Below, one piece after another: positions 3,054 to 34,806 of a stretch of 39,912 bases of DNA. The position numbers and the translations under genes are program-made. The stretch is from contig NZ_FOIT01000002.1 of NCBI RefSeq assembly GCF_900110815.1, forward strand, positions 1 through 39,912, given 5' to 3'. Each line of letters begins with the position of its first letter. The first letter of the stretch is position 1. Below the pieces are notes generated by a model. It did not search any database and was not told where the DNA came from. It saw only the letters and a program-made list of their open reading frames with translations. The DNA is from Aliicoccus persicus (GTDB lineage Bacteria > Bacillota > Bacilli > Staphylococcales > Salinicoccaceae).

Positions 3054-3096
3054 AGCTTCATCCCCTTAATTATAGTTTAATCAGTAATCTAAAACT

Positions 3097-9527: not shown

Positions 9528-9567
9528 AATTTCATCTCCCTATGGATTACTTATATTTACAACACAT

Positions 9568-10065
9568 CTATTCCTCAACAATGATTTTTACAATTGCCGT
9601 ATCAACAGTACCATCGTCGTTAAACGAAGCAATGTCAACTTCTAAAGATTCGACACCTTCAAGAATATCATAAAATCGGTGAAATTGCTCAGATTCTCCT
9701 GGTTCAACTTCAGGAAGATACATTGAAGGGTTGTAATCTGTGATTATAAAATTATCACCATAAAAGCTCACGGAAAAATTCTGTGTCTGGTTATCTGCCC
9801 CTACATTCTTAAACTCAAATTCTATCGCTAATAAGTTTTCGGGCTCTCCGAATATATCGATGATTTCTTCATCCATTACCTGTTCAACTTCTGTATAATA
9901 AGCATCTGTAATCGAAATTTCGAATCCATCATGAGTAAATGTCTCGTTCATCTCATATTCGAACGTCTTTCCTGGCTGAACTGTTACTACATCTGAATCA
10001 TGTTCATCAACCGTGTTTGACGCACTAAGTGCAAGTAACAAGAGTATCGATGGTGTAACTGTCAT
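9568..10065 (-). CDS. exported DUF4352-like paralogue D
   Basis: A 165-aa, more divergent family member (MTVTPSILLLLALSAS, then MNETFTHDGFEISITDAYYTE, IEFEFKNVG, YGDNFIITDY, EPGESEQFHRFY, VESLEVDI). The GRxGxGQL stretch of the others is replaced, so the ligand surface may differ. It is the first gene of the D-C operon. The ATG is preceded by AAAGGGG. The conserved 21-bp element sits at 10098-10118. It is divergent from the 28-aa peptide gene at 10184. Confidence 0.78.
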   Translation of the reverse strand: MTVTPSILLLLALSASNTVDEHDSDVVTVQPGKTFEYEMNETFTHDGFEISITDAYYTEVEQVMDEEIIDIFGEPENLLAIEFEFKNVGADNQTQNFSVSFYGDNFIITDYNPSMYLPEVEPGESEQFHRFYDILEGVESLEVDIASFNDDGTVDTAIVKIIVEE

Positions 10066-10335: not shown

Positions 10336-11511
10336 CTACTCACCACTTAACTCAACGAGCATGATATTTGGATTTTCGATCAACGATTTGAAGTAATTCG
10401 TGAACTGGATGGCATCGCCGCCATCCATCACACGGTGGTCAAAGGTTAATGTCACATTCATCATCGAACGGATGACGATCTCATCTGCTTCATTCACGAC
10501 TGGCATCTTCTTCGTCTTATGGAAACACATGAGTGCCACTTCTGGATAGTTAATAATCGGTGTCGCACCGATACTTCCCATCGGACCGACGTTACTAATC
10601 GTAAATGTACTACCACGCACATCTTGTGGTTGTAAGGTATTTTCTCTTGCCTTTTCATTCAATGTTTTTAACTCTGAATGAATCGTCCCCAGCGACTTAT
10701 CTTCCACACGATTAATCACCGGTACAATCAATCCTTCTTTCGTATCGACTGCTACACCCATATTCACATTTGGCTTCAGTTTAATCTGACTATTGTCCTC
10801 ATCGAGTTCCGCATTAAATATTGGAAACTTCTTTAAACTCATTGCGAGTGCTTTAATGAAGAAAGCAGCGACTGATATATTGTACGTCTCTTTTATATCT
10901 TCTCTATAAGCAAGCAGTTTTGTCATATCAATCTCTTCCATATGCGCAACGTGTGGGATCGTAAACAGTGACTTCGTCATATGTGCTGCGATCTGTTTAC
11001 GTCTGCCTTTGAATGGGATGAATTCAACATCTTCTTGTGTTGAAGAGGTTTGCTTTTCTTCTATTTGTGTTCCACCATTACTGAATGACTCCACATCTTT
11101 GACCGTAATTCTGCCATCTTTCCCTGTGCCTGTAATCGCGTCGATATCCACACCGAGTTCTCGTGCTACTTTTCGTGTGAACGGCGCTGCTTTAATACGC
11201 TTGGGTCCAGTGGTTGTTGATTGTTTATTATCTACTTCTTCAATATTTTTATTTTCAGGTTCGTTGTTTACATTGTCAGCCGCTTCTATTTCAAGAATCG
11301 TCGTACCAACTGGAATTGTTTGCCCTTCTTCAATGTGAATCTTTGATATTTTACCAGCGACCGGTGCTGAGAGTTCTGTGACCATCTTTTCTGTCTGGAG
11401 TTCTATAATCGGTTGGTCACGTTTGACTTCGTCACCCTCACGAGCGAAATAAGAGACAATGGTGCCCTCGGTCATGCCTTCTCCGATGTCATGCAATTTT
11501 ACTTCTACCAT
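10336..11511 (-). CDS. 2-oxoacid dehydrogenase E2 (dihydrolipoamide acyltransferase)
   Basis: A 391-aa E2 core protein. It has one lipoyl domain at 1-77 (lipoyl Lys42 in LQTEKMVTEL), a linker, a peripheral subunit-binding domain at about 103-140 (ARELGVDIDAITGTGKDGRITVKDV) and a catalytic acyltransferase domain ending with FDHRVMDGG (His about 359). It transfers the acyl group made by E1 to CoA. It is the last gene of the operon, 12 bases after E1beta, with AAAGGAGG before the ATG. By family it is BkdB-like (branched-chain). The neighbouring dehydrogenase and hpa genes make an arylpyruvate substrate plausible. No E3 gene lies here, so a lipoamide dehydrogenase must come from elsewhere. Confidence 0.93.
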   Translation of the reverse strand: MVEVKLHDIGEGMTEGTIVSYFAREGDEVKRDQPIIELQTEKMVTELSAPVAGKISKIHIEEGQTIPVGTTILEIEAADNVNNEPENKNIEEVDNKQSTTTGPKRIKAAPFTRKVARELGVDIDAITGTGKDGRITVKDVESFSNGGTQIEEKQTSSTQEDVEFIPFKGRRKQIAAHMTKSLFTIPHVAHMEEIDMTKLLAYREDIKETYNISVAAFFIKALAMSLKKFPIFNAELDEDNSQIKLKPNVNMGVAVDTKEGLIVPVINRVEDKSLGTIHSELKTLNEKARENTLQPQDVRGSTFTISNVGPMGSIGATPIINYPEVALMCFHKTKKMPVVNEADEIVIRSMMNVTLTFDHRVMDGGDAIQFTNYFKSLIENPNIMLVELSGE

Positions 11512-11523
11512 GGTGACCCTCCT

Positions 11524-12510
11524 TTAGAAATCCATCACGTATTGGATTTTATCCATCACGCGCTCTGGTGTTGGTAAGTACGCTTTTTCCAATGCCCAAA
11601 ATGGCACATGAACATCTGGTGCTGTCACTGTAGACACGGGTGATTTTAAGTACAAAAACGATGTGTCATTGATGATGCGGATAATATCATTTGATAAACC
11701 GCCTGTCTGCTGTGCTTCATGCACGATGACACATCGGTTCGTTTTCTGTACGGATGCTGCGATGATGTCTTTATCGATTGGGTACAATGTGCGCAAGTCT
11801 ATCACATCACAAGTAATGCCTTTTTCACGTGCTTGCTCAGCTGCTTTTAGTGCCACTTTCATCATGGCACCCCATGCGATTAACGTGACATCTTCACCTT
11901 CTTCAGCGAGATATCCTTTACCAATCTCTACTGTATACTTTTCTTCTGGCACATGATCTTTCGTGCCTCGATACAGTTTTAATGATTCTAAAAACAGTAC
12001 CGGGTCTGGATCTTCTATTGCTGAGATCAACAGCCCTTTCGTATCATATGCGGTTGATGGGCAGACGACTTTAATACCCGGCATATGGGTAAACAGTGCT
12101 TCCATACTATCCGAGTGGATTTCTGGAGCATGAACACCCGCGCCATACGGTGCTCTGATGACCATCGGTACGGTAAATTTACTCATCGTCCGGTAACGCA
12201 TGCGCGTTGCCTGGGTCATAATTTGTTCGAATGCAGGGTAAATAAATCCAAAAAACTGGATTTCTGCGACGGGTTTCATGCCATTCATTGCCATCCCGAT
12301 TGCGGCACCAACAATGCCCGCTTCTGAAAGTGGCGTATCCATCACACGTTTCTCTCCATATGTGTCTATGAGTCCGTCCGTTGCACGGAATACACCACCG
12401 TTCACTCCGACGTCTTCTCCGAGCACAACGACATTTTCATCTGATTTCATCATGACATCAAGGGCATCTTTCACCGCTTGGACAGGCGTTAAAATTCTCT
12501 CTTCACTCAT
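11524..12510 (-). CDS. 2-oxoacid dehydrogenase E1 beta subunit
   Basis: A 328-aa transketolase-like E1beta (ILTPVQAVKDALD, LGEDVGVNGGVFRAT, DTPLSEAGIVGAAIGMAMNG, MRAPYGAGVHAPE-like stretch, LIAWGAMMKVALKAAE). It forms the alpha2beta2 thiamine-diphosphate enzyme that decarboxylates a 2-oxoacid and acylates the E2 lipoyl arm. The start at 12510 (MSEERILTP) is chosen because AAGGAGG precedes it and it overlaps the E1alpha stop by ATGA; the longer frame from 12570 lies within E1alpha. The BCKDH-type sequence does not by itself separate branched-chain from aryl 2-oxoacids. Confidence 0.93.
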   Translation of the reverse strand: MSEERILTPVQAVKDALDVMMKSDENVVVLGEDVGVNGGVFRATDGLIDTYGEKRVMDTPLSEAGIVGAAIGMAMNGMKPVAEIQFFGFIYPAFEQIMTQATRMRYRTMSKFTVPMVIRAPYGAGVHAPEIHSDSMEALFTHMPGIKVVCPSTAYDTKGLLISAIEDPDPVLFLESLKLYRGTKDHVPEEKYTVEIGKGYLAEEGEDVTLIAWGAMMKVALKAAEQAREKGITCDVIDLRTLYPIDKDIIAASVQKTNRCVIVHEAQQTGGLSNDIIRIINDTSFLYLKSPVSTVTAPDVHVPFWALEKAYLPTPERVMDKIQYVMDF

Positions 12511-13583
12511 CCGTTTGCCCTCCTTGCAAAAAATGCCTTGAACGCTGCTTTTTGTTCTTCGATCGTCCACGGATTGACTTCAAACATATGATCATAGATG
12601 TCATCGATATTAGGTTTTTCCATTGATTCAAATTCTTTCACAGCTGCTTCGATTATCGATTCATTTTCTGATTCTATTGTTTCTATCCATCCATCCGATA
12701 AAAACCCAGCATCATTCATGAATTTCTCTAATCGATTGATGGGATCATTGAGTCGATGTTTTTCATTATCATCCTCACGATACTTTGTCGGGTCATCCGC
12801 CGTTGTATGTGCACCGTAGCGCCATGTTACCGCTTCAATAAGCGTTGGTCCGTCACCCTTTCGTGCTTTATCGACTGCTTTCTTTGTCTCAAAGTAAACC
12901 GCAAAGATATCGTTGCCGTCGATGCGCTTCCCTTCCATACCATATGCAATTGCTTTTTGAGCGATTGTCTCCGACTTCATCTGTTTCCAAATCGGTACGG
13001 AGATTGCGTATTGGTTATTTTGATTGAAAAATACGACTGGCGCGTTAAACACGGAGGCAAAGTTCATGCCTTCATGGAAGTCGCCTTCACTTGTCGCACC
13101 ATCACCGAAGTAACAGATAGTTACTTCTTGTTCGCCTTTATATGCACTTGCCATTGCGATGCCTGCACTGATCGGTAACTGTGTTGCGATTGGTACAGAT
13201 GGTGGGAGTACTTTCTTGCCGCTGTCGTCGATATTACCTTCTACTCTGCCATTCCAGTTTGCAATTAGATTGAAACTGTTTGTGAAAGTTATTGCGGCAG
13301 CATGATCACGATATGTGGGAAACATCCAATCATTCTCTTCGAGTGCATACGCACTCCCGACTTGTGCAGCTTCTTGTCCCCCAAACAGAGGATATGTTCC
13401 GATTCGTCCTTGACGTTGCATGTTGACCATCTTCTCGTCTAATGCACGCATTAATTTAAGTTGTTTGAGGAACTTCTCACAGAGTTCACGTGTGATCTCT
13501 TCTTTATATGAATCATCCAGTAACTTGCCATCCTGGTCAATGACTTGAATGAGCGGAAACTGTTCTGCAATTGACTGTGTCAC
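12507..13583 (-). CDS. 2-oxoacid dehydrogenase E1 alpha subunit
   Basis: A 358-aa E1alpha of the BCKDH/PDH family. The thiamine-diphosphate motif is clear (YFGDGATSEGDFHEGMNFAS...NNQYA), as are GQEAAQVGSAYAL near the N-terminus and the phosphorylation-loop-like YGAHTTADDPTKYR. The start is a GTG at 13583 after GAAAGGG. It is co-transcribed downstream of the amino acid dehydrogenase (13 bases away) and translationally coupled to E1beta. The usual Bacillus bkd partners (ptb, buk, lpdV) are absent, which argues against a standard branched-chain fatty-acid operon. Confidence 0.93.
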   Translation of the reverse strand: MTQSIAEQFPLIQVIDQDGKLLDDSYKEEITRELCEKFLKQLKLMRALDEKMVNMQRQGRIGTYPLFGGQEAAQVGSAYALEENDWMFPTYRDHAAAITFTNSFNLIANWNGRVEGNIDDSGKKVLPPSVPIATQLPISAGIAMASAYKGEQEVTICYFGDGATSEGDFHEGMNFASVFNAPVVFFNQNNQYAISVPIWKQMKSETIAQKAIAYGMEGKRIDGNDIFAVYFETKKAVDKARKGDGPTLIEAVTWRYGAHTTADDPTKYREDDNEKHRLNDPINRLEKFMNDAGFLSDGWIETIESENESIIEAAVKEFESMEKPNIDDIYDHMFEVNPWTIEEQKAAFKAFFARRANG

Positions 13584-13596
13584 AAAATCACCCTTT

Positions 13597-14733
13597 CTAT
13601 TCTTTCACTTGCCACTTCGGTCTGCGGTGTCGTGCAAAGAAATTATTACGGTTGCGCTGATCATCTAATACAGCTTGAACTCGGATACTCGCTGCTTCTA
13701 ACGTCGTTATATTGTTTGCATCGGCCTCTGCAAAAATTGATTCGAGTGAATTGAATATTGCTTTCGTTTCTTTTAGTACACGCTCATGGTTCGGCCCATA
13801 TAATTCATCCGCGACTTGAATTAATCCACCAGAGTTGACGATAAAGTCCGGTGCATAAACGATGCCTGCCTGCTTTAATTTCTCCGCTATCTCTTTTGTT
13901 TTCAACTGATTATTTGCAGAACCGACGATTGCTTTGACTTGTAGTTTTTCCAATGTTTCATCATTGATGATGCTACCCATTGCACATGGGACGAAAATAT
14001 CGGCTTTGACATCATAGATGTCATCTAACCCAACGATCGTTAATTGGCCAGTAAGATCTTTAGCTTCTTTCGTTAACTGTTCAATCGCTGATTCATTGAT
14101 GTCTGTTGCATATACTGTGGCACCGAGTTCAAGCAATCTTTGTGCAATTTTATAACCCACTTTACCCAAGCCTTGAATTGCATATGAATTTAACCCTAAA
14201 TCTTGATGATTGAATACATAATTACTTGTTGCTTCAAGTGCATAAAGTACGCCATGTGCTGTCGGAATTGAAGAATCTCCACTTCCTCCATATGCTTCTG
14301 GTATGCCATTAATGAACTGTGTCTCCTTCGCTGCTTCCACGAAATCCTCAGGCATCGTCCCCATATCTGTACCGGTATAAAAACGGCCGTTTAATGAATC
14401 TACATATTGACCAAATGCACGGAACAACGCCGGTGTACTATCAGTTTTAGGATCTCCAATGATGACGGCTTTACCACCACCAAAATCAAGTCCAGCTGCA
14501 GCACACTTATTTGTCATCCCCTCGGATAATCGAAGGACATCATCCAGTGCATCTTCAAAGCTTGCATATGGAAACATGCGCGTGCCTCCAAGTGCTGGAC
14601 CGAGTGTCGTATCATGTATTGCAATGATTGCCTTTAAGCCACTATGCGGATCATTGCATAAAACAACCTGCTCGTGATCTTTTATCTTTTCGAAGTAGTC
14701 AATCGTCTGTATTCCATCAATATTCTGTGTCAC
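13597..14733 (-). CDS. amino acid dehydrogenase, phenylalanine dehydrogenase type
   Basis: A 378-aa NAD-dependent Glu/Leu/Phe/Val dehydrogenase. It has LKAIIAIHDTTLGPALGGTRM, the catalytic-lysine region GLDFGGGKAVIIGDP, and the Rossmann GLGKVG. The segments GRFYTGTDMGTMPEDFVEAA and GGLIQVADEL follow phenylalanine dehydrogenases (GTDMGTNPEDFV, GGLIQVADEL), not leucine dehydrogenases (TAEDVGTTVEDM, GGVINVADEL); this comparison is from memory of the families. It would deaminate Phe or Tyr to the arylpyruvate. The start is the GTG at 14733 with GGAGG 9 bases upstream; an in-frame TTG at 14754 lies inside the thioesterase. It begins one base after the thioesterase stop. Confidence 0.88.
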   Translation of the reverse strand: MTQNIDGIQTIDYFEKIKDHEQVVLCNDPHSGLKAIIAIHDTTLGPALGGTRMFPYASFEDALDDVLRLSEGMTNKCAAAGLDFGGGKAVIIGDPKTDSTPALFRAFGQYVDSLNGRFYTGTDMGTMPEDFVEAAKETQFINGIPEAYGGSGDSSIPTAHGVLYALEATSNYVFNHQDLGLNSYAIQGLGKVGYKIAQRLLELGATVYATDINESAIEQLTKEAKDLTGQLTIVGLDDIYDVKADIFVPCAMGSIINDETLEKLQVKAIVGSANNQLKTKEIAEKLKQAGIVYAPDFIVNSGGLIQVADELYGPNHERVLKETKAIFNSLESIFAEADANNITTLEAASIRVQAVLDDQRNRNNFFARHRRPKWQVKE

Positions 14734-14734
14734 G

Positions 14735-15151
14735 TCATAATCCCTCCGTTGCAATTTTGTCTTGTATATTTTTTAATTGTTTTTCCATATAACCATTCGG
14801 TAACAACGCAATCGTCACCGTTCCTTTACCGATCACACCGATTTCATTTTTTACGACAACTTCTGTCGTGACCGTCTTCTCATTAAAATCTGTCAGCATC
14901 GCCACATTTTTCACAGCCGACCCAACTGGTGTCGGTGCGATATGTGTCATTGTGACTTTTGCTCTTGCTGATTCTTCATGTGATTCTAAAAACGGTAAAA
15001 TCAATTGTCGTGATACTTGCTCCATATGTTTGACCATTGATGCTGTTGAATATGCTGGATGAACAACTTCTTCATCGAATACCGCGAACATGTCTTCAGT
15101 TACTGTAATCTCCAGTGATGCTGACATGCCAACTTTCAATCCTGGCTTCAT
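14735..15151 (-). CDS. FlK-like hotdog acyl-CoA thioesterase
   Basis: A 138-aa hotdog-fold protein most like fluoroacetyl-CoA thioesterase FlK. It opens with MKPGLKVGMSASLEITVTE. The likely catalytic set is Thr in AYSTASMV, Glu in KHMEQVSRQL and His in VTMTHIAPTPVG, matching FlK Thr/Glu/His by position and spacing. It would hydrolyse a small acyl-CoA. As the first gene of the operon feeding from amino acid dehydrogenase and 2-oxoacid dehydrogenase, it is well placed to turn 4-hydroxyphenylacetyl-CoA into the free acid that HpaBC needs (inference). GAGGAGG precedes the ATG. A strong promoter and a cre site lie upstream. Confidence 0.82.
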   Translation of the reverse strand: MKPGLKVGMSASLEITVTEDMFAVFDEEVVHPAYSTASMVKHMEQVSRQLILPFLESHEESARAKVTMTHIAPTPVGSAVKNVAMLTDFNEKTVTTEVVVKNEIGVIGKGTVTIALLPNGYMEKQLKNIQDKIATEGL

Positions 15152-15283: not shown

Positions 15284-16162
15284 TTATTTCTGAAATAACG
15301 TGACAAAATGCGCAGCACTTTGAGGTAGTGTCCGTGACTTTAACCAGATGATTGCTGACTTTGAAACGAGTGCCGTATCATCGATTGGAACGGTAAATAT
15401 ATTGTTATACGTTCTTGATGCAAGTGCAGTTTCAGGGACGATAGAAATCCCGACACCTTTCGCAACTAACGTCAACAACATTTCAACATCGGGACAGACA
15501 ACGCGTACGTCTGGTTCTACTTTTGCACGTTTAAATCCTTCAATGATTGTTTCATATTGGCCTGAACCACTCACTCGTTTAAGTAAAAGTAGCGGTAATG
15601 ATTCTAAATCCTGAGGTGTCACTTGGTTTTGTGGAAGAAGGTCTTTGTATGACTCATGTGCGACAACGACGTAACGTTCATCCGGTAGATGAACGATATC
15701 AAAATCATCGAGTTGAATCGGTAAGCGCACGATAGCAATGTCAATCTCTCTCGATTTTAATAACTCGGATAATCGATACGAATCCCCATCCCTTATGTCG
15801 AATGTAACACGTGGGAAATACTCTTGAAAGTGTGCGATTTTATCTGCCACATGTTTAAATGATGACTTCACCGAGCCGATGGCAAGTTGCCCTGAGACGC
15901 CTGATGCAGTAGCTGACACTTCGTTCATCACATCATCAAACATATCAAATAAAAGTGCTGCTTTTTCATGGAGCACATGCCCGGCTTGTGTCAATTCCAT
16001 CTGTCTACCGTTTCGTTCAAATAGTTTTACACCAAGTTCCGCTTCAAGCCCTTTTAAACTTTGACTTAGTGGTGGCTGTGCGATATGTAGCTTCTTTGCA
16101 GCTCGCGTAATCTGTCCTTCTTCTGCGATCGTATTAAAATATTTCAGCTGTCTCATATCCAT
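15284..16162 (-). CDS. LysR-family transcriptional regulator
   Basis: A 292-aa LysR regulator. The N-terminal winged helix (MRQLKYFNTIAEEGQITRAAKKLHIAQPPLSQSLKGLE) is followed by a periplasmic-binding-like effector domain (GVSGQLAIGSVKSSF, IDIAIVRLP, LESLPLLLL, VAKGVGISIVPE). It is divergent from hpaB, with 122 bp between the start codons, and upstream of the leftward operon, so it is the natural local regulator of both arms. The effector is probably an aromatic acid such as 4-hydroxyphenylacetate (inference). The ATG at 16162 has GAGG 13 bases upstream, which is long; the internal ATG at 16156 is an alternative. Confidence 0.92.
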   Translation of the reverse strand: MDMRQLKYFNTIAEEGQITRAAKKLHIAQPPLSQSLKGLEAELGVKLFERNGRQMELTQAGHVLHEKAALLFDMFDDVMNEVSATASGVSGQLAIGSVKSSFKHVADKIAHFQEYFPRVTFDIRDGDSYRLSELLKSREIDIAIVRLPIQLDDFDIVHLPDERYVVVAHESYKDLLPQNQVTPQDLESLPLLLLKRVSGSGQYETIIEGFKRAKVEPDVRVVCPDVEMLLTLVAKGVGISIVPETALASRTYNNIFTVPIDDTALVSKSAIIWLKSRTLPQSAAHFVTLFQK

Positions 16163-16217: not shown

Positions 16218-16252
16218 GCATTATCAAATGGTACACTGTGGGTGACATATTT

Positions 16253-16266
16253 TGAAAGCGTTTTCT
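16253..16266. promoter_or_regulatory. cre-like site before hpaB
   Basis: TGAAAGCGTTTTCT matches the cre consensus except for the last base. It lies just ahead of the hpaB ribosome binding site, the same arrangement as in the leftward operon, and suggests shared catabolite repression. Confidence 0.6.
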
Positions 16267-16284
16267 ATAAAGAGGAGGGGCAAT

Positions 16285-17760
16285 ATGCCAGCAAAAACCG
16301 GTAAGCAATATATTGAGAGACTAAAGGCAGCAAACAACAATGTGTATCTACATGGTGAACGTGTGGAAGACGTGACGACGCATCCGAAGTTTAAAGGTGT
16401 TATCGAATCAATGGCAAAGCTGTATGACATGCAACACGACAACCCTGAAAAGATGTTGTATACATCACCAACGACTGGTGACAAAGTAAGCAAGACGTTC
16501 ATGGTGCCAGAAACGATTGAGCAGCTGATTGAACGCAGGGAAGCCATTATGGAATGGCAGAACTATACGAAAGGTCTGATGGGTCGTGCGCCGGATTACT
16601 TAAATGCAGAAGTGATGACAATGACAAAAGCATTTGAATTTTACGGCCAAGGAGAGAACAAACAGTTTGCAGAAAACGCGTTACGATATGCAGAATACGC
16701 ACGCGAAAATGATATTACACTAACGCACACGCTCATTCACCCACAGGTGAACCGTGCGAAGATTCAAGCAGAACAAGAAGATGCGAACATGGCACTTCAT
16801 GTCGTTGAGAAAAACGATGAGGGTGTTGTTGTCAGTGGGATTCGACTACTTGCAACCCAAGCTGCAATCACAGATGAGATATTCGTCTTCCCTTCGACCG
16901 TTGTGAAATCTGGTGCGAAAGATGATCCATATTCACTTGCTTTTGCAATCCCGAATAACACGGATGGTTTAAAGTTCTTCTCTCGTGAATCGTTTGTTTA
17001 TGGTGAGGGAGAAGCAAACTTTAACCATCCCGTCGGTTCTAAGTTTGAGGAAGGTGATGCGATCGTATCATTCGATCACGTCCTCGTACCGTGGGATAGG
17101 ATCTTTATCTTGGAAGATTCTGATTTGTGTAACAAAGCATTTGCAGAAACGAATGCCGTGACGCACATGACACATCAAGTTGTCGCGAAAGATATCGCTA
17201 AGACGGAGTTTTTACTTGGCGTGACGTTGAAGTTGATGGATTCAATTGGCATCGATGGGTTCCAGCACGTACAAGATAAGGGCACAGAAATCATGTTGAC
17301 GCTTGAGGCGATGAAGTCACATCTCTACAAAGCTGAGCACAATGCCAAGCTCGACAAATGGGGCATGATGACGCCGGACTTTGAAGCGCTAAATGCGGCG
17401 CGTAACTATTTTCCACGCGTCTATCCGCGCATGGCTGAAATATTGAGAATTTTAGGTGCATCTGGGCTCATGGGTATTCCGACGTATGAAGACTTTAACA
17501 ACCCTGAAATTGGTGCTCAGCTAAACCGCGCACTGCAAGGTAAAAATGTTGAAGGGTTCGAACGCGTACAGTTGTTCCGCCTCGCTTGGGATATGACGAT
17601 GAGTGCATTTGGTTCACGCCAAACGCATTACGAATACTATTTCTTTGGTGACCCTGTGAAGATGGGCATGGCTTACTTCAATCAATACGATAAAGAGCCG
17701 TTAATGAAATCGGTCGACGACTTCCTGGCATCACAAAATGTTAAACGACCGAATTTTTAA
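16285..17760 (+). CDS. hpaB: 4-hydroxyphenylacetate 3-monooxygenase, oxygenase component
   Basis: A 491-aa FADH2-dependent hydroxylase of the HpaB/PvcC family. It adds a hydroxyl to 4-hydroxyphenylacetate to give homoprotocatechuate, using reduced flavin from the next gene. The family features visible are KTGKQYIERL, VYLHGERVEDVTTHP, HTLIHPQVNRAK, ATQAAITDEIFVFP, FDHVLVPWDRIF and SGLMGIPTYEDF. The start MPAKTGKQ at 16285 has GAGGAGGGG upstream; a longer frame from 16252 runs through the cre site and is rejected. It is the first gene of the hpa operon, 16 bases before hpaC. Confidence 0.95.
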   Translation: MPAKTGKQYIERLKAANNNVYLHGERVEDVTTHPKFKGVIESMAKLYDMQHDNPEKMLYTSPTTGDKVSKTFMVPETIEQLIERREAIMEWQNYTKGLMGRAPDYLNAEVMTMTKAFEFYGQGENKQFAENALRYAEYARENDITLTHTLIHPQVNRAKIQAEQEDANMALHVVEKNDEGVVVSGIRLLATQAAITDEIFVFPSTVVKSGAKDDPYSLAFAIPNNTDGLKFFSRESFVYGEGEANFNHPVGSKFEEGDAIVSFDHVLVPWDRIFILEDSDLCNKAFAETNAVTHMTHQVVAKDIAKTEFLLGVTLKLMDSIGIDGFQHVQDKGTEIMLTLEAMKSHLYKAEHNAKLDKWGMMTPDFEALNAARNYFPRVYPRMAEILRILGASGLMGIPTYEDFNNPEIGAQLNRALQGKNVEGFERVQLFRLAWDMTMSAFGSRQTHYEYYFFGDPVKMGMAYFNQYDKEPLMKSVDDFLASQNVKRPNF

Positions 17761-17776
17761 TTGAGGAGTGATCTAT

Positions 17777-18247
17777 ATGGATCCAAGAGAATTTAGAAAT
17801 GCGATGGGACGCTTCGTCACGGGTGTGACAATCATTACAGCTGAAGACGATGCCGGAACACACGGTATGACAGCAAACGCATTTATGTCCGTGTCACTTG
17901 ATCCAAAGTTGATTACAGTGTCGATCGATAACAAAGCGAATATGCTCGGTCGCGTGCGTAACGCTGGAAAATTTGCAGTCAACATTTTATGTAATCATCA
18001 GCAAGATGTTTCCATGCACTTCGCCAAACAATTGTTAAAGGAAGAACCGATAGAGTTTGGTGAGCTCAGCGGTGTGCCAATTATTAATAACGCACTGACG
18101 AATGTCGTCTGCGATGTCGAACGAGAAATTGAGCTTGGCGATCACACATTATTTGTCGGCGCAGTCAAAGACATCGTCATGAACGAAGGGCGACCATTAA
18201 CATTTTACAGCGGTCAATACGGCCAGTACGAAGTACCAAACGATTAA
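17777..18247 (+). CDS. hpaC: flavin reductase, HpaC component
   Basis: A 156-aa flavin-reductase-like protein (FMN-binding split barrel): FRNAMGRFVTGVTIITA, GMTANAFMSVSLDPKLITVSID, FAVNILCNHQQDVSMHFA, HTLFVGAVKDI. It supplies reduced flavin to HpaB. The ATG at 17777 has GAGGAG 8 bases upstream; the GTG at 17768 overlaps that site and is rejected. The adjacency to hpaB fixes the role. Confidence 0.93.
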   Translation: MDPREFRNAMGRFVTGVTIITAEDDAGTHGMTANAFMSVSLDPKLITVSIDNKANMLGRVRNAGKFAVNILCNHQQDVSMHFAKQLLKEEPIEFGELSGVPIINNALTNVVCDVEREIELGDHTLFVGAVKDIVMNEGRPLTFYSGQYGQYEVPND

Positions 18248-18260
18248 AGGAGTGAACCAT

Positions 18261-19757
18261 GTGTCAGAACAACACAACACACTGATAAAAGACTTATCAA
18301 CCGTTTTGCACTACATCGATGGTGAATTTGTTGCCTCAAAAAGTGGAGAAACATTTGAAAACATCAGTCCGTTTACGAATGAAAGTATGAATGATGTCTC
18401 TGCTGGTCAAAGCGATGATATTGACCGTGCTGTGCAAGCTGCAGAAGCAGCTTTTAAAGGTGAATGGGGTCAGATGAAACTTGAAGAGCGACTCTCTTAT
18501 ATATATAAAATTGGTGACTTGATTGAAGCAGAAGTTGAAGAAATTGCCTCGCTCGAGTCCTTGGATACTGGGTTGCCAATCCGACAGACACGGAAGATGG
18601 TCTCACGTGCTGCACTTAATTTCCGATTCTATGCCGATCAAGTGAAAAATCTGATGTTCGGTGAAGTTTATCCTGTAGATGATGAATTTGTAAACTACAC
18701 GACGAGAACACCTGTTGGTGTTGCGGGACTTATCACACCATGGAATGCACCGTTCATGCTTGAAACATGGAAGATTGCACCGGCGCTTGCGACAGGAAAT
18801 ACAGTTGTATTGAAGCCGGCAGAATGGTCACCACTATCAGCAAACCGCATTGCGGAAGTGATCGACCGTGCAGGATTACCAAAAGGTGTATTTAATGTGG
18901 TGCACGGCATCGGCGAAGTTGCAGGCGATGCACTCGTTAAACACAAGGGTGTTAAGCTCATCTCATTTACTGGTGAGACAAAGACGGGATCATTAATCAT
19001 GAAGCATGGTGCGGATACATTGAAGCGATTCTCAATGGAGCTCGGTGGTAAGAGTCCGATTATCGTGTTTGACGATGCAGACTTTGACCGTGCGCTCGAT
19101 GCAGTCGTATGGGGAATCTTCTCGTTTAATGGCGAGCGCTGCACAGCGAACTCAAGACTGTTTGTTCATGAAAATATATATGATGACTTTATGGCTGCCG
19201 TAAAAGAACGTGTCGGTAATATTAAAGTCGGAGATCCATTAGATGACGCAACTGAAGTCGGTCCACTCATCAAAACTGAGCACTTCGAAAATGTGAAAAG
19301 TTATATTGAACTTGCGAAAGAAGAAGGCTGTGACGTCATTCAAGGTGATGTACCGGAATCGATGTCACGCGGTAACTTCGTACCGCCGACGTTACTCATC
19401 GGTGCAGAGAGTCATATGCGCGTCGTTCAAGAAGAAATTTTCGGTCCTGTCATGGCCATCTTGTCATTTACCGATGAGGAAGATGTTGTGCGTCAGGCAA
19501 ATGACGTTGAATATGGTTTAGCGGGATATGTGTGGACCAACAACTTGGCGCGTGGACATCGTGTCGCACAAGCAATTGATGCTGGGATGCTTTGGGTAAA
19601 TTCTCAGAATGTCCGTGACTTGCGCACACCATTCGGTGGTGCAAAAAATAGCGGTATCGGACGTGAAGGCGGCTACTATGCCTTTGATTTCTATACCGAA
19701 ATAAAAATTATCCACGTGGCGATTGGGGATCACCACATCCCTCAGTTTGGTAAATAG
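18261..19757 (+). CDS. hpaE: 5-carboxymethyl-2-hydroxymuconate semialdehyde dehydrogenase
   Basis: A 498-aa NAD(P)-dependent aldehyde dehydrogenase. It has a TPWNAPF region, the FTGETKTG cofactor loop, the general base in ELGGKSP and the catalytic Cys294 in FNGERCTANSR. By family closeness (SEQHNTL..., DFYTEIK) and position it is HpaE, oxidising the ring-cleavage aldehyde to 5-carboxymethyl-2-hydroxymuconate. The GTG at 18261 is chosen: AAAGGAG lies 8 bases before it, while the ATG at 18259 is out of frame. It is 13 bases after hpaC. Aldehyde dehydrogenase is certain; the substrate comes from context. Confidence 0.92.
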   Translation: MSEQHNTLIKDLSTVLHYIDGEFVASKSGETFENISPFTNESMNDVSAGQSDDIDRAVQAAEAAFKGEWGQMKLEERLSYIYKIGDLIEAEVEEIASLESLDTGLPIRQTRKMVSRAALNFRFYADQVKNLMFGEVYPVDDEFVNYTTRTPVGVAGLITPWNAPFMLETWKIAPALATGNTVVLKPAEWSPLSANRIAEVIDRAGLPKGVFNVVHGIGEVAGDALVKHKGVKLISFTGETKTGSLIMKHGADTLKRFSMELGGKSPIIVFDDADFDRALDAVVWGIFSFNGERCTANSRLFVHENIYDDFMAAVKERVGNIKVGDPLDDATEVGPLIKTEHFENVKSYIELAKEEGCDVIQGDVPESMSRGNFVPPTLLIGAESHMRVVQEEIFGPVMAILSFTDEEDVVRQANDVEYGLAGYVWTNNLARGHRVAQAIDAGMLWVNSQNVRDLRTPFGGAKNSGIGREGGYYAFDFYTEIKIIHVAIGDHHIPQFGK

Positions 19758-19767
19758 GAGGGATACT

Positions 19768-20748
19768 ATGGATTTTAATGTAATGCGTACCGGTCGTGCT
19801 GTATTACATGTGACTGACCTTGAAGCTTCACGTGCGTTTTACGATGCGCTCGGATTCATTGAGACCGCAAGTGATGATGAGAATATATATTTCCGTGCGA
19901 TTGAAGACTTTGCTCACCACTGCTTGCATTTAAAGTTAGGCGATATACCTGCAGTGGAAACGATTAGTTACAAAGTCGGATCAGAAGAATGTCTCGATGA
20001 ATTACACACGTTATTTGTTGACCATGACCGAAATGTCAAATGGATGGAAAAAGGCACACAAGTCGGTATTGGCCGGACACTACGTGTAGAAGAAGTTTCT
20101 GGCATGACGATAGAATTTTATTTTGAGATGGAACATGTCGAACGCATGATGCAAAAGTTCCATCTGCACAAAGGCGCAAAAGTTCAGCGCATCGACCATT
20201 TTAACTGTGCAGTACCGGATGTAGACAAAGCGTATGATTACTATATTCATGAACTTGGCTTTAAATGTTCTGAATTCACTTCGATCAAAGGATCTGAACA
20301 TATTTGGGCGGCTTGGCTACATCGCAAGCCAGGCGTGCATGACGTTGCGTTTATGAATGCCGTCGGTCCGAGACTTCACCATATTGGATTTTGGCTGAAG
20401 GATCCGATGAGTCTCATTGATTGCTGTGATTACTTAGCAGCAGCAGGATATCGAGATTCGATTGAACGCGGACCAGGACGCCACGGGTTGTCCAACGCAT
20501 TTTTCTTATATTTACGTGACCCAGATGGGCATAGAATAGAGCTTTACAACGGTGACTATTACACAGGTGACTTTGATAACCAACCGATCGAATGGGATCT
20601 TGATGACCCTGCCCGACAAACTTTCTGGGGCCATGAAGCACCGGATAGTTGGTTCAATGAAGCATCTACCCTACTCGATTTAAATGGAAATGTCGTGCCC
20701 GTAAGCGAACCGAAACTAGCAAAAATAAAGCCAAATACAATCATTTAA
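19768..20748 (+). CDS. hpaD: homoprotocatechuate 2,3-dioxygenase
   Basis: A 326-aa type I (VOC-fold) extradiol dioxygenase. The metal ligands are apparent: His144 (RIDHFNCAV), His205 (GPRLHHIGFW) and Glu258 (DGHRIELYNGDYYTG), with spacing like the Brevibacterium fuscum enzyme. It opens the ring of 3,4-dihydroxyphenylacetate next to the hydroxyls. The ATG at 19768 has AGGAGGG upstream; the frame continues into the hpaE end, which is ignored. This is the VOC-type enzyme, unlike the LigB-type HpaD of E. coli. Confidence 0.93.
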   Translation: MDFNVMRTGRAVLHVTDLEASRAFYDALGFIETASDDENIYFRAIEDFAHHCLHLKLGDIPAVETISYKVGSEECLDELHTLFVDHDRNVKWMEKGTQVGIGRTLRVEEVSGMTIEFYFEMEHVERMMQKFHLHKGAKVQRIDHFNCAVPDVDKAYDYYIHELGFKCSEFTSIKGSEHIWAAWLHRKPGVHDVAFMNAVGPRLHHIGFWLKDPMSLIDCCDYLAAAGYRDSIERGPGRHGLSNAFFLYLRDPDGHRIELYNGDYYTGDFDNQPIEWDLDDPARQTFWGHEAPDSWFNEASTLLDLNGNVVPVSEPKLAKIKPNTII

Positions 20749-20763
20749 TTGGAGTGAATGCAT

Positions 20764-21672
20764 GTGAGTACAGACTATAGTGAAATTAAAGATAAACTGC
20801 GCGGATCAATTTGCCCAGTTATCACACCGTTCAAAGCAAATGGTGACATTGATTTTGAAAAACAGCGAGACTTAATCAACTTTCAAATAGAAAATGGATC
20901 TCATGGAATCTCTGTGACAGGAACAAGCGGAGAACCGAGTTCACTAACCGTTGAAGAGCGCGTTCAAGTGATGGAAAATGCGATGCAAGTTATCGATGGT
21001 CGCGTATCCTTTGCACCAGGTACAGGTTCAGTCAATCACGAAGAAACTCTATATTTAACAAAAAAAGCAAAAGAGATGGGTGCAGATGCTGCAATGGTCA
21101 TCGTCCCTTACTACAACAAACCGAACCAAGACGCATTGTACAAACACTTTAAACTAGTTGCAGATGCGGTCGATATTCCAATCATCATCTATAATATTCC
21201 AGGACGTACTGCCGTGAACATGGAAGTGTCCACGATGGCTCGCTTGGCAAAAGATTGTAATAACATTATCGGGGTGAAAGAGAGTAACAAAGACTTCGAA
21301 CACGTGAATCGAGTGTTGAAATATTGTGGTCGTGACTTTCTATTATTCTCAGGTATCGAGTTGTTATGCTATCCGATGCTGTCAATCGGTGGCGCAGGTT
21401 CAATTAGTGCAACAGCAAACGTTGAGCCGAAGCTCGTCGCAGAGATGCACGATGCATATTTTGCGGGCGACATCGAACGTGCACGTGACCTACACTTTCA
21501 GTTGATTAACTTGAACGACATACTATTGGCCGACACGAACCCTGCACCTGTTAAAGCAGCATTAGGCATGATGGGTATGATTGAACCCGTTTTACGCATG
21601 CCAATGGATGTACCAAAAAAAGAAATACAAGATAAAATTCGAGCTGTACTAAAAGACTATGGAAAGATTTAA
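20764..21672 (+). CDS. DapA-family aldolase, putative hydratase-aldolase of the hpa route
   Basis: A 302-aa class I (Schiff base) aldolase of the dihydrodipicolinate synthase superfamily. Tyr143 (IIYNIPGRT) and Lys172 (GVKESNKD) are the expected catalytic pair. The GTSGEPSSL loop replaces the GTTGES loop of true DapA. The GTG at 20764 is used because GGAG lies 9 bases upstream; the ATG at 20758 is too close. It lies between hpaD and hpaG1, so it should act on a ring-cleavage product and release pyruvate and succinate semialdehyde in place of HpaI. Because HpaH is missing, it may also hydrate 2-oxohept-3-enedioate, as NahE-type hydratase-aldolases do for their substrates (inference). Confidence 0.85.
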   Translation: MSTDYSEIKDKLRGSICPVITPFKANGDIDFEKQRDLINFQIENGSHGISVTGTSGEPSSLTVEERVQVMENAMQVIDGRVSFAPGTGSVNHEETLYLTKKAKEMGADAAMVIVPYYNKPNQDALYKHFKLVADAVDIPIIIYNIPGRTAVNMEVSTMARLAKDCNNIIGVKESNKDFEHVNRVLKYCGRDFLLFSGIELLCYPMLSIGGAGSISATANVEPKLVAEMHDAYFAGDIERARDLHFQLINLNDILLADTNPAPVKAALGMMGMIEPVLRMPMDVPKKEIQDKIRAVLKDYGKI

Positions 21673-21692
21673 ATTGACGAGGAGTGAGACGG

Positions 21693-22340
21693 ATGAACGT
21701 CGCAGAAATCGGCACTGTATACGGTACGCTACTAAATTTTAAAGGTGCGTATGATGCACTCGAACCACAAATGCATGATGAACCGTATAAAGCACCACCG
21801 AAAGCACCCGTTTTTTACATTAAACCGAAGAATACATTTGCGAGTGACGGAGACGTTATTGAGAAGCCTGTGGATGAGGCAATTGTGATGGGCGGTACGA
21901 TTGGTGTCGTCATGGGACAGAATGCGAGTCGAGTCGCACGTGACGAGGCGATGGCGTACGTTGCAGGGTTCGTTGTGGCAAATGATGTCGCCATCGCGCA
22001 CGATAACTTCTTCAGACCCGCTTACCCCAAACGTGCGCGGGATGGCTTTTTGCCACTAGGTGATTACAAAGATAAGTCAGAGATCCATGACATTAACAAT
22101 TTAGAAATTCAAATATTCATCAATGACGAAATCACACAAATATCAATATTATCTGACCTCATCCGTGATATCCCGACACTCATCCAAGATGCTTCTGAAT
22201 TTATGACATTATCCGCTGGAGATATTCTTCTCGTCGGAACGGATACAAATGCGCCATCAGCTGAGCCCAGAGATACTGTCAGAGTAGTCGTCCCTGGAAT
22301 CGGTACATTAGAAAACACAATTGGAGGTGGCAGACAATGA
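21693..22340 (+). CDS. hpaG1: HpaG1, N-terminal-half homologue (FAH superfamily)
   Basis: A 215-aa fumarylacetoacetate-hydrolase-superfamily protein corresponding to the N-terminal half of E. coli HpaG (PYKAPPKAPVFYIKPKNT, AYVAGFVVANDV, FFRPAYPKRARDGFLPLG). It should work in the decarboxylation/isomerisation of the carboxymethyl-hydroxymuconate-derived oxoacid, together with HpaG2. The ATG at 21693 has GAGGAG upstream. It overlaps hpaG2 by ATGA, so the two are made in a fixed ratio. In E. coli the halves are fused in one chain; here they are separate. Confidence 0.9.
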   Translation: MNVAEIGTVYGTLLNFKGAYDALEPQMHDEPYKAPPKAPVFYIKPKNTFASDGDVIEKPVDEAIVMGGTIGVVMGQNASRVARDEAMAYVAGFVVANDVAIAHDNFFRPAYPKRARDGFLPLGDYKDKSEIHDINNLEIQIFINDEITQISILSDLIRDIPTLIQDASEFMTLSAGDILLVGTDTNAPSAEPRDTVRVVVPGIGTLENTIGGGRQ

Positions 22341-23095
22341 AACATGCAATCATTTCCTACAAAGGACAAATATACAATGCCACAACCAACGATGAATCAA
22401 TCTTACAACTAGAAAATGGTGAATCAGTTTCAGTCGATGATGTGCAGTTTTTACCTCCGGTTAAACCACACACGATTTTCACTCTCGGACTAAATTATGC
22501 CGACCATGCGGCTGAGTTATCATTCAAAGAAGCACCAAAAGAGCCACTCGTCTTTTTAAAAGGACCGAACACACTCATCGGTCACAAAGAAAAAACAATT
22601 CGACCAATCGATGTTGAATTTATGCACTATGAGTGTGAGCTTGCAGTCGTTATCGGTAAACAAGGCAAACACATCAAAGCTGAAGACGCATATGACTATA
22701 TCAAAGGTTACACTGTCGCCAATGACTACGCCATTCGTGATTATCTGGAAAACTATTACCGACCGAACTTACGGACTAAAAATCGCGATACGTGTACACC
22801 TATCGGCCCCTACTTTGTCGATAAAAATGACATACCCGACCCGATGAACTTAACGCTCACGACAACAGTTAACGGCGAAGTCGTCCAGACCGGTTCAACG
22901 AAAGATATGATTTTCTCCATTTCCTATCTGATCGAATACTTGAGCAGCTTCATGACATTAAATGAAGGTGACATTCTGTTAACCGGGACACCTAAAGGTT
23001 CTGTCGATACAAACCACGGTGATGTTGTCCAGACCGAAGTCGAAGGTGTCGGTCGTCTTGAAAATACGATTATTGCACCTCGATGGGAGGCATAA
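22337..23095 (+). CDS. hpaG2: HpaG2, C-terminal-half homologue (FAH superfamily)
   Basis: A 252-aa FAH-superfamily enzyme, strongly like the C-terminal half of E. coli HpaG (GLNYADHAAELSFK, EPLVFLKGPNT, EFMHYECELAVVIGK, NDYAIRDYLENYYRPNLR, EGDILLTGTPKG). The acidic metal-binding set (His-Glu-x-Glu type, HYECE) is present. It catalyses 5-oxopent-3-ene-1,2,5-tricarboxylate decarboxylation and/or the following isomerisation. It is coupled to hpaG1 by overlap and ends just inside the ribosome binding site of hpaF. Confidence 0.93.
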   Translation: MKHAIISYKGQIYNATTNDESILQLENGESVSVDDVQFLPPVKPHTIFTLGLNYADHAAELSFKEAPKEPLVFLKGPNTLIGHKEKTIRPIDVEFMHYECELAVVIGKQGKHIKAEDAYDYIKGYTVANDYAIRDYLENYYRPNLRTKNRDTCTPIGPYFVDKNDIPDPMNLTLTTTVNGEVVQTGSTKDMIFSISYLIEYLSSFMTLNEGDILLTGTPKGSVDTNHGDVVQTEVEGVGRLENTIIAPRWEA

Positions 23096-23097
23096 TT

Positions 23098-23475
23098 ATG
23101 CCACATCTATACATCGAATATACAGACAACTTGGACATCGATATCACGCGCCTACTCTCAGTCAGCCAAAAAGCATTGCTTGAGTTTCCAGATATCATTC
23201 CTGTCGGTGGCCTTCGCATCCGTGCAGTAAAGCATACCGACTATATCATTGCAGATGGTCAGGCAAACGACGGTTTTGTTCATTTAATATTAAAGCTCGG
23301 GGCTGGCCGTACCGATCAAGTTAAGGACGAAATTACGCAACATCTATTTGATGCTGTGTCGAACGCGTTAGATGAAATATTCGATTCACAATCCATTGCC
23401 CTGAGCTTGGAACTTCATGAATTCACCCATCCGACTTTAAAACGAAACAACATTCACGCGCGTTTCAAAAAATAA
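23098..23475 (+). CDS. hpaF: 5-carboxymethyl-2-hydroxymuconate delta-isomerase
   Basis: A 125-aa tautomerase-superfamily protein. After removal of Met, Pro1 (MPHLYIEYTDN) is the catalytic base, as in CHMI. LRIRAVKHTDYIIADG and FVHLILKLGAGR support the family. The start at 23098 is set by GGGAGG 10 bases upstream and by the need for Pro at position 2; the frame from 23083 is rejected. It is the last gene of the hpa operon. No terminator is obvious before the T-box promoter at 23485. Confidence 0.92.
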   Translation: MPHLYIEYTDNLDIDITRLLSVSQKALLEFPDIIPVGGLRIRAVKHTDYIIADGQANDGFVHLILKLGAGRTDQVKDEITQHLFDAVSNALDEIFDSQSIALSLELHEFTHPTLKRNNIHARFKK

Positions 23476-23496: not shown

Positions 23497-23690
23497 AATA
23501 TCATATTCAAGTAAAAGAGTAATTTGATCAGATAGCATAGCGAGCTGGGGTTGGTGGGAGCCTGGTGTATGTGTTCAAATGAACCGCATTACAACGATTC
23601 GGTGGCAACACCGTTAACAATTTGAGTTAATTTTAGAGTGGTACCGTGAGTAGCTCACCTCTTATATAGAGGTGGGTTATTTTTATTTTT
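23497..23690 (+). promoter_or_regulatory. T-box riboswitch upstream of argS
   Basis: A tRNA-sensing leader. The stem I apical part (AGCGAGCTGGGGTTGGTGGGAGCC, 23539-23562) carries the GGTG-type loop. The T-box sequence AGAGTGGTACCGTG lies at 23634-23647, and a terminator hairpin (ACCTC...GAGGT plus T-run) at about 23657-23690. A stem III-like hairpin CGGTGGCAACACCG lies at 23600-23613. CGC at 23585-23587 followed by A is a plausible arginine specifier codon. Uncharged tRNA-Arg should favour read-through into argS. Confidence 0.88.
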
Positions 23691-23703
23691 AGGAGGAATT
23701 TTG

Positions 23704-25362
23704 ATGAAGGATATCATCGCAAATGAGCTATACCAAATATTAAAAGAACATATGACATTAGAAGAAATTTTAGAAACGATTGAAGTACCCGCAGATACAT
23801 CACATGGAGATTTCGCATTTCCGACATTTAAGTTGGCAAAGATCATACGTCAAGCACCACCAAAGATTGCAGAAAATATCGCCGAACAAATCGACAGCCC
23901 TATTATCGATGAAGTGAAAGTTATCGGTGGATTTTTAAATTTCCATTTGGCACATGCTGCAGTGGCGAAGTCCATGCTAAAAGAGATTGCGAAAAATGAC
24001 TTTGGAATGTCTACATCGCTTCAAGATGAAACATTTGTCATCGATTTCTCGAGCCCGAATATTGCGAAGCCATTTTCTATGGGGCATTTCCGTGCAACGA
24101 TTCTCGGTGACGCACTGCAGAAAATATTAAAACAAAATAGTGCAGAAGTCATCGGCATCAACCACCTCGGCGACTGGGGTACACAGTTCGGTAAACTCAT
24201 CGTCGCATACCAAATGTGGGGCGATGAGGATGCAGTCCGAGCAAACCCGATTCCAGAACTGTTTAAATTATACGTACGCATTAATGCTGAAGAAAAAGAT
24301 AACCCGACACTTGCCGATAAAGGACGTGAGGCATTTTCAAAGCTTGAACAAGGCGATACAGAAATGCACGATCTTTGGTCATGGTTCAGAAGCGTATCAC
24401 TCGTCGCATTCGGTGTACTCTATGAACGCTTGAACATTCACTTCGATGTCATTCAAGGCGAAGCTTTTTATAATGATGCACTCGAACACGTCAATCAGTT
24501 GCTAGAAGAAAAGGAACTGTTAGAATTCGATGATGGTGCATATATCGTGCCACTCGAAGACTTGCCACCAGCACTGATTAAAAAGCGCGATGGTTCATCA
24601 CTGTACATCACACGAGACGTCGCCGCTGTCCTATACCGTAAGCAAAATTATAATCCGGATCATATATTATATGTCGTCGGTCACGAGCAATCCGTTCATT
24701 TTAATCAGCTGCGTGAAGTCATCAAAAAAATGGATATCGATGTCGATATCGAGCATGTTGCATTCGGCCTCATTTTAAAAGATGGTAGAAAGATGTCGAC
24801 AAGACGCGGCCAAGTGCTGTTGCTCGAAGACATTATTGATGAAGTGAAGCAACGCGTGCTTGAAGTGATGGAAGAAAAAGGCACCGCTATACAAGATAAA
24901 GACCAAGTTGCTGAGACACTTGCCATTGGCGCACTGAAGTATCATGACTTAAAACCAGATCGCAACAACAGTTATTCCTTCAACATCGACGATATGATTT
25001 CATTCGAAGGAGATACTGCGGTTTATATCAACTATACAAATGCACGTATCCAATCGATTTTAAAGAAACGCGAGCAAGTCATTTCACTAGATAATTTTAT
25101 CTATGAAGAGTCGATGTGGCCGCTGATTAATCATCTCTCAACATTCCCATCGGTCGTTGAGGATGCAGCGAAAAAGTATTCACCTTCACTGATCGCACGC
25201 TACGTTATGCAACTCTGCCGCCACTTCAATCCGTATTATGGCAACACGCGTATCGTCAGCTCGGTTAATGTAGACAGCCAAATGTTCTTGCTTGATCTCG
25301 TATCAAAAAACATCGTAGAAACGTTTCGTTTGCTCGGTATTGAAGTCGTTGACGCGATGTAA
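23704..25362 (+). CDS. argS: arginyl-tRNA synthetase, streptococcal type
   Basis: A 552-aa class I synthetase. It has FSSPNIAKPFSMGHFR with the HIGH motif as SMGH (125-128), GINHLGDWGTQFGKLIVAY, LYITRDVAAVLYR and the KMSKS loop as KMSTRRG (363-369). A C-terminal anticodon-binding helical domain ends LGIEV...AM. These variants follow the Streptococcus/Lactobacillus ArgS lineage and not the S. aureus type (HIGH as HIGHAR, KMSKR). The ATG at 23704 follows AGGAGG by 8 bases. Expression is under the T-box. A second, housekeeping ArgS elsewhere is possible. Confidence 0.95.
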   Translation: MKDIIANELYQILKEHMTLEEILETIEVPADTSHGDFAFPTFKLAKIIRQAPPKIAENIAEQIDSPIIDEVKVIGGFLNFHLAHAAVAKSMLKEIAKNDFGMSTSLQDETFVIDFSSPNIAKPFSMGHFRATILGDALQKILKQNSAEVIGINHLGDWGTQFGKLIVAYQMWGDEDAVRANPIPELFKLYVRINAEEKDNPTLADKGREAFSKLEQGDTEMHDLWSWFRSVSLVAFGVLYERLNIHFDVIQGEAFYNDALEHVNQLLEEKELLEFDDGAYIVPLEDLPPALIKKRDGSSLYITRDVAAVLYRKQNYNPDHILYVVGHEQSVHFNQLREVIKKMDIDVDIEHVAFGLILKDGRKMSTRRGQVLLLEDIIDEVKQRVLEVMEEKGTAIQDKDQVAETLAIGALKYHDLKPDRNNSYSFNIDDMISFEGDTAVYINYTNARIQSILKKREQVISLDNFIYEESMWPLINHLSTFPSVVEDAAKKYSPSLIARYVMQLCRHFNPYYGNTRIVSSVNVDSQMFLLDLVSKNIVETFRLLGIEVVDAM

Positions 25363-34771: not shown

Positions 34772-34806
34772 CTGAGATTCGAATGCATTCGAATCTCAGT
34801 TTTTTT
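34772..34806. terminator. perfect 28-bp palindrome and terminator in the IS end
   Basis: CTGAGATTCGAATG and its exact reverse complement abut at 34772-34799, followed by TTTTTT on the plus strand. It would stop outside transcription from entering the transposase genes in antisense, and can also end orfB. Confidence 0.85.

Follow-up and report, generated by a model that had tools for sequence, protein, structure and literature searches.

Does one enzyme carry out the last two steps of 4-hydroxyphenylacetate degradation in Aliicoccus persicus? The window, the whole 39,912-nt stretch of DNA that was analysed, carries an hpa operon in which the place of HpaI is held by a protein of the DapA family. 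According to the original prediction all hpa steps are encoded except the 2-oxohept-3-enedioate (OHED) hydratase HpaH, and the DapA-type protein might both hydrate OHED and cleave the product, 4-hydroxy-2-oxoheptanedioate. The gene content agreed with the first part: HpaB, HpaE, HpaD and HpaG2 scored over their NCBIfam cut-offs, HpaF was recognized by Pfam, and only HpaH was lacking.

The operon, delimited with NCBIfam and Pfam profiles, extends from 16252 to 23475 on the (+) strand and has the gene order hpaB-hpaC-hpaE-hpaD-hpaI-hpaG1-hpaG2-hpaF (Table 1). hpaI is separated by 10 nt from hpaD and by 11 nt from hpaG1. HpaC stayed under the cut-offs of the HpaC models, of which HpaC_Thermus was the best, and HpaG1 fell 0.65 bit short of the TIGR02305 cut-off. 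The terminator was called by a consensus scan, in which the total number of such signals was no higher than chance.

Table 1. Genes and signals of the hpa region (positions in the window)
Feature	Position	Strand	Evidence
LysR-type regulator, divergent from hpa	15284-16162	-	LysR models matched; homologues in 65/80 loci
hpaB, 4-hydroxyphenylacetate 3-monooxygenase oxygenase	16252-17760	+	TIGR02309, 834.9 bits (cut-off 480.2)
hpaC, flavin reductase partner of HpaB	17768-18247	+	PF01613; HpaC_Thermus, 123.5 bits (below cut-off)
hpaE	18252-19757	+	TIGR02299, 804.5 bits (cut-off 638.35)
hpaD, 3,4-dihydroxyphenylacetate 2,3-dioxygenase	19723-20748	+	TIGR02295, 443 bits (cut-off 321.4)
hpaI, DapA type, proposed hydratase-aldolase	20758-21672	+	TIGR02313, 519 bits (over cut-off)
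hpaG1, FAH-fold subunit without E-x-E metal motif	21684-22340	+	TIGR02305, 228.0 bits (cut-off 228.65); alignment
hpaG2, OPET decarboxylase / HHDD isomerase, FAH-fold, E-x-E motif	22337-23095	+	TIGR02303, 388 bits (cut-off 276.4); alignment
hpaF, 5-carboxymethyl-2-hydroxymuconate isomerase	23083-23475	+	PF02962 (CHMI), 132.7 bits
Putative terminator 3′ of hpaF	23648-23682	+	15-pair stem, T-rich tail

The hpaI reading frame starts with ATG and encodes 304 amino acids. An in-frame GTG at 20764 lies 9 nt past a GGAG (20751-20754), whereas the ATG is only 3 nt past it. Because of this spacing the GTG, the start used in the original prediction, is the better fit and may be the true start. Similarly, hpaB may start at the first Met downstream of the TTG, and the start of hpaD is probably the ATG at 19768 (the TIGR02295 profile begins at residue 19).

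Other features of the neighbourhood were also recorded. A divergent block (10336-15151, - strand) encodes a FlK-type thioesterase, a Glu/Leu/Phe-type amino acid dehydrogenase and the E1 alpha, E1 beta and E2 components of a 2-oxoacid dehydrogenase; it may feed the hpa pathway by converting tyrosine, through 4-hydroxyphenylpyruvate and a CoA ester, to 4-hydroxyphenylacetate. The same block was found near hpa genes in Sporosarcina limicola (L110) and in Oceanobacillus sp. J11TS1 (L037, where the stretch ends before E2). Just past the hpa operon an arginyl-tRNA synthetase gene (23701-25362, + strand; 553 aa, TIGR00456) adjoins a YfcC-like transporter gene. Two pairs of similar, small, secreted-looking paralogous proteins with the pattern NETFTFD.FE..F.DAYY are encoded at 2508-3606 and 9033-10065 (- strand), and IS3-kind transposase-like genes lie in two reading frames at 34805-36327 (- strand).

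The hpaI product belongs to the DHDPS family (PF00701, 290.6 bits). The cut-off of TIGR02313 (HpaI-NOT-DapA), which it exceeded, is 396.7 bits; the KdgD model gave 104.6 bits (cut-off 373.95), and TIGR02311, the model of HpcH-type HpaI, did not match the protein. The Schiff-base lysine and the tyrosine that had been predicted for the occupant of the HpaI position are K174 and Y145, both invariant in 114 homologues. The AlphaFold model (mean pLDDT 91.1) aligned to DapA structures with Z scores of 41-43, and the 50 matches listed were all DapA-type entries. In the phylogenetic tree the HpaI group and DapA formed separate clades, with supports (ultrafast bootstrap/SH-aLRT) of 94/73 for HpaI and 94/80 for DapA. 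NahE of plasmid NAH7, 28% identical to the DapA-type HpaI, was placed far outside on a very long branch; since the tree carries a long-branch warning, the deep branching order is not firm. The earlier comparison with NahE thus failed as a grouping, the sequence being nearer to DapA, but held for the Schiff-base Lys/Tyr that the two proteins have in common. NahE is an analogy of chemistry, not of family.

The genome sequence of the host (2.06 Mb in 8 contigs, estimated completeness 99.53%; nearest hits include Salinicoccus) was searched with the HpaH model TIGR02312, a check that had been set beforehand. There was no match at E ≤ 1e-3 anywhere in the genome, which eliminated an HpaH hidden outside the operon; as a control, all seven plasmid records with other hpa clusters gave matches to this model over cut-off. 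HpcH-type HpaI (TIGR02311) was likewise not found in the genome. Three FAH-fold proteins are encoded: HpaG1, HpaG2 and an unlinked one on another contig (C6, L169), none of which is matched by TIGR02312. The unlinked protein was considered as a candidate hydratase and rejected: it matches PF01557 and retains the FAH E-x-E motif.

At 1e-5 the host genome contains no DapA-family protein besides HpaI and no DapB (TIGR00036), the latter search giving matches in 11 of 14 control genomes. With neither a second DapA-family gene nor dapB, the DapA-type HpaI does not appear to be a lysine enzyme in this organism, which apparently makes no lysine by the diaminopimelate route. These data bear on the view that the protein is an ordinary DapA (4-hydroxy-tetrahydrodipicolinate synthase) lying in the operon by chance. 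The full DapA catalytic set, the nearest solved folds and a score over the cut-off of the general dapA model (TIGR00674, 298 bits) would fit such a view. Nevertheless, we regard it as extremely improbable: dapB is absent, relatives have a separate true DapA, HpaI forms its own clade with an invariant Ile-Glu at DapA positions 187-188, and 46 of the 47 genomes with HpaD also have it.

The last figure comes from 399 Bacilli genomes that were sampled evenly. TIGR02313 was over cut-off in 47 of them and HpaD also in 47, 46 genomes being common to the two sets (Fisher p 4e-58, or roughly 1e-26 when counted by genus; since the genomes are related, such values overstate their independence). None of the 399 genomes had an HpaH match, whether at E ≤ 1e-90 or by the model cut-off; this search had no positive control match, the same model being over cut-off in plasmid records. 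HpaH over cut-off was absent from 49 genomes with the DapA-type gene, 20 of which lacked any homologue at 1e-3, and from 39 named genomes reached through loci, 21 of which lacked any homologue. The two sets overlap by at least one genome, and combined they comprise about 87 genomes without HpaH over cut-off and about 41 without a homologue.

MhpD-type hydratases, HpaH homologues below the cut-off, were present in 29 of the 49 genomes; the host is not among these. Such genes were commonly paired about 2.7 kb apart, and several adjoin the gene of an aldehyde dehydrogenase that shares 46-50% identity with HpaE. By comparison with catechol meta-cleavage operons, this arrangement suggests that the pairs encode the hydratase and the decarboxylase of meta-cleavage.

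Two genomes of the sample departed from the general pattern. In one (G327) hpaI, hpaG2 and hpaE were found and HpaD was not detected at 1e-80. The other (G239) was considered as a counterexample, with HpaD and without the DapA-type gene, and was rejected: its HpaD-like protein, encoded beside a flavin reductase, is only 38% identical, and there is no HpaE or HpaG on the short stretch around the gene, so the protein looks like a paralogue. Second HpaD-like dioxygenases, 38-41% identical and accompanied by flavin reductases, occur at four loci: L211, L212 (genome G226), L213 (G039) and L210 (G239). In G226 and G039 the contig with the second dioxygenase also encodes an MhpD-type hydratase, and G226 has in addition a protein of 339 aa that is similar to NahE at its start. 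These loci possibly represent another ring-cleavage pathway in Bacilli.

The surroundings of the DapA-type gene were compared in 112 loci, 80 of which reached as far as 10 kb to either side of it and the others about 1.5 kb. HpaE and/or HpaD were encoded near the gene in 109 loci; homologues of HpaH, MhpD or HpcH-type HpaI were near it in none of the 112. The common ORF families of the 80 long loci were hpaB, C, D, E, F, G and I, LysR (65 loci), a RibF-like protein, GntR (27 loci) and transporters. The RibF-like FAD synthetase gene, present in 32 of the 80, probably supplies flavin for HpaBC.

If the DapA-type HpaI were an aldolase only, hydration would have to be performed by another protein. 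HpaG2 and HpaF of the same operon are two such candidates. HpaG2 combines the E-x-E metal motif with the FAH fold, which is distantly like that of MhpD/HpaH, HpaF is a member of the tautomerase family, in which some proteins hydrate, and the genes are conserved in Bacilli operons (hpaG in 71 and hpaF in 63 of the 80 loci). However, both enzymes have pathway steps of their own, and such enzymes coexist with HpaH in bacteria that possess it (PMC12718150; plasmid loci); HpaG1 lacks the metal motif. We consider hydration by HpaG2 or HpaF unlikely.

A conserved, unassigned operon gene was also sought as the hydratase, and clustering of the 80 loci yielded none. Catabolic steps are usually clustered. 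A non-homologous hydratase encoded elsewhere would have to be unlinked to hpa in nearly all Bacilli, and this makes it quite unlikely, even though a member of an unknown family would be invisible to homology searches and the host genome, in 8 contigs, is 99.5% complete. No other candidate hydratase emerged, either in the operons or by HpaH homology in the host genome.

Outside the Bacilli both arrangements were found. Eight plasmid hpa loci without the DapA-type gene (Deinococcus deserti, D. radiodurans, Rhodococcus, Paenarthrobacter, Rhizobium, Ruegeria, Photobacterium, Arthrobacter) have HpaH: it exceeded the cut-off in all seven records searched in full, and in Arthrobacter tblastn detected it. 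In 6 of the 8, on the stretch read, HpcH-type HpaI is encoded beside HpaH. In two control genomes, Thermus composti and Deinobacterium chartae, both TIGR02313 and HpaD exceeded their cut-offs, and the HpaH model found no match. Among plasmid records with a DapA-type protein at 1e-60, that of Embleya was the only one shared with the best 60 of 128 HpaE records; here the DapA-type gene stands beside HpaE and HpaD, and HpaH is not over cut-off in the 5.7 Mb record. As the Embleya protein scores 330.6, under the TIGR02313 cut-off, its membership is based on clade and context. Both arrangements, pair and single gene, thus occur within Deinococcota and within Actinomycetota. The substitution of one DapA-type gene for the hpaH-hpaI pair is class-wide in Bacilli and recurs in these two phyla in lineages apart from one another, a distribution that may reflect few transfers and so few independent replacement events.

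In the Embleya megaplasmid cluster (L144, 8166-13707) the DapA-type gene, hpaE and hpaD follow a gene for a fused FAH-RraA protein (PRK12764, 723.5 bits), which stands in for HpaG/HpaF. A Rhodococcus koreensis plasmid (L145, 9488-12298) encodes a 45% identical DapA-type protein beside a FAH protein and a flavin reductase, with no hpaE or hpaD nearby; it perhaps serves a related pathway with another substrate. Paraburkholderia 'hpaI_2' (39%) lies outside any hpa cluster and was therefore left out of the count.

Spontaneous, or at least not rate-limiting, hydration of OHED would account for the missing HpaH with no need for a further activity of the aldolase. This is very unlikely in view of the retention of HpaH in bacteria with HpcH-type HpaI. 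Moreover, in Acinetobacter the hydration of OHED was measured as a distinct, Mn-dependent enzyme step (PMC12718150).

The proposal of a bifunctional DapA-type HpaI was examined at the level of the active site. Thr44, Tyr107, Tyr133, Arg138, Lys161, Gly186 and Asn248 of DapA correspond to T56, Y119, Y145, R150, K174, G199 and N261 of HpaI, and R150, Y145, K174, Y119 and N261 are kept in 114 of 114 HpaI-type sequences. The position of DapA Thr45 is occupied by S57 (Ser or Thr overall, Thr in 40 of the 114), and that of Ile203 by Ile or Val. An invariant difference concerns Asp-Asp at DapA 187-188, replaced by Ile-Glu in all 114 sequences, which by inference would mean that the amino group of aspartate semialdehyde no longer fits. 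The active site looks DapA-like, with no added residue clearly marking a hydratase.

In crystals of DapA with pyruvate and succinic semialdehyde the adduct is bound to the lysine and its carboxylate to Arg138/Asn248; in E. coli DapA the hydroxyl at C4 of the adduct also contacts Ile203 (PMC11201819). The residues for pyruvate and for the Arg138, Asn248 and Ile203 contacts are retained in HpaI. Chemically, this adduct is identical to the Schiff base that the HpaI substrate, 4-hydroxy-2-oxoheptanedioate, would form. The deoxy form of this substrate, alpha-ketopimelate (saturated 2-oxoheptanedioate), is an inhibitor of M. tuberculosis DapA (IC50 21 uM), and a crystal structure shows it in the active site (PMC4977564). 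From these structures, the DapA fold is known to hold a C7 diacid at the lysine.

We suggest the following mechanism. Formation of the iminium would turn C3=C4 of OHED into a Michael acceptor, with the far carboxylate held by R150 and N261. Water would be added at C4, Y145 and the Thr-Tyr relay (T56, Y119) acting as acid/base; water addition of this type is known in the DHDPS superfamily for NahE. The bound 4-hydroxy intermediate would be the same adduct as arises in E. coli DapA when pyruvate combines with succinic semialdehyde, and its retro-aldol cleavage would give succinic semialdehyde and the pyruvate enamine, which would then be hydrolysed. Both activities and their order are what we infer; gene content, HpaH absence, the replacement pattern and the residues are what we observed.

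Taken together, the sequence data make it likely that the product of 20758-21672 is a bifunctional 2-oxohept-3-enedioate hydratase / 4-hydroxy-2-oxoheptanedioate aldolase replacing the HpaH-HpaI pair. We put forward with somewhat more reserve, but still as probable, that this is a second, independent origin of a hydratase-aldolase in the DHDPS superfamily, from a DapA-like ancestor, by which two metal-dependent steps of the homoprotocatechuate pathway were fused into one Schiff-base enzyme, standard in Bacilli and found also in some Deinococcota and Actinomycetota. If true, the gap in this textbook pathway is closed for the whole class Bacilli, and a fold of lysine biosynthesis has replaced two metal enzymes by one. 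The TIGR02313 annotation would change from aldolase to hydratase-aldolase, and automated annotation would no longer report a missing hpaH or an incomplete pathway for Bacilli and Thermus.

Annotation had already predicted the aldolase half, as the TIGR02313 model exists at NCBI. The DapA-type HpaI is a member of this family, with the same operon context throughout Bacilli; the family name (2,4-dihydroxyhept-2-ene-1,7-dioic acid aldolase) covers only the aldolase and not the hydratase step or the loss of HpaH. As to the predicted hydratase half, among the open-licence literature we found no paper proposing or testing a DapA-type hydratase-aldolase in the 4-hydroxyphenylacetate pathway. HpaH (MhpD family) and HpcH-type HpaI of E. 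coli, Deinococcus, Rhizobium and Rhodococcus serve the same two steps from the same place in the cluster, but they are two unrelated proteins instead of one. HpaH (PMC12718150) and HpcH-type aldolases are metal-dependent, whereas DapA-type enzymes use a lysine Schiff base.

DapA/DHDPS itself (2EHH of Aquifex, 4EOU of E. coli) has the fold and all catalytic and adduct-binding residues in common with HpaI; it works in the opposite metabolic direction and belongs to a separate clade, and the HpaI substrate has no amino group, the site differing by Ile-Glu at 187-188. NahE resembles HpaI in the Schiff-base Lys/Tyr and in the proposed chemistry (Schiff-base formation, hydration at C4 and retro-aldol cleavage), but it has Ala for R150, Trp for Y119 and Phe for S57, and its substrate is aromatic, not a dicarboxylate. 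KdgD and KdaD, also of the DHDPS superfamily, catalyse a step of the reverse kind, in which water is removed at C4 via a Schiff base (PMC13398020); unlike the reaction proposed for HpaI, theirs is a dehydration without aldol cleavage and acts on other substrates.
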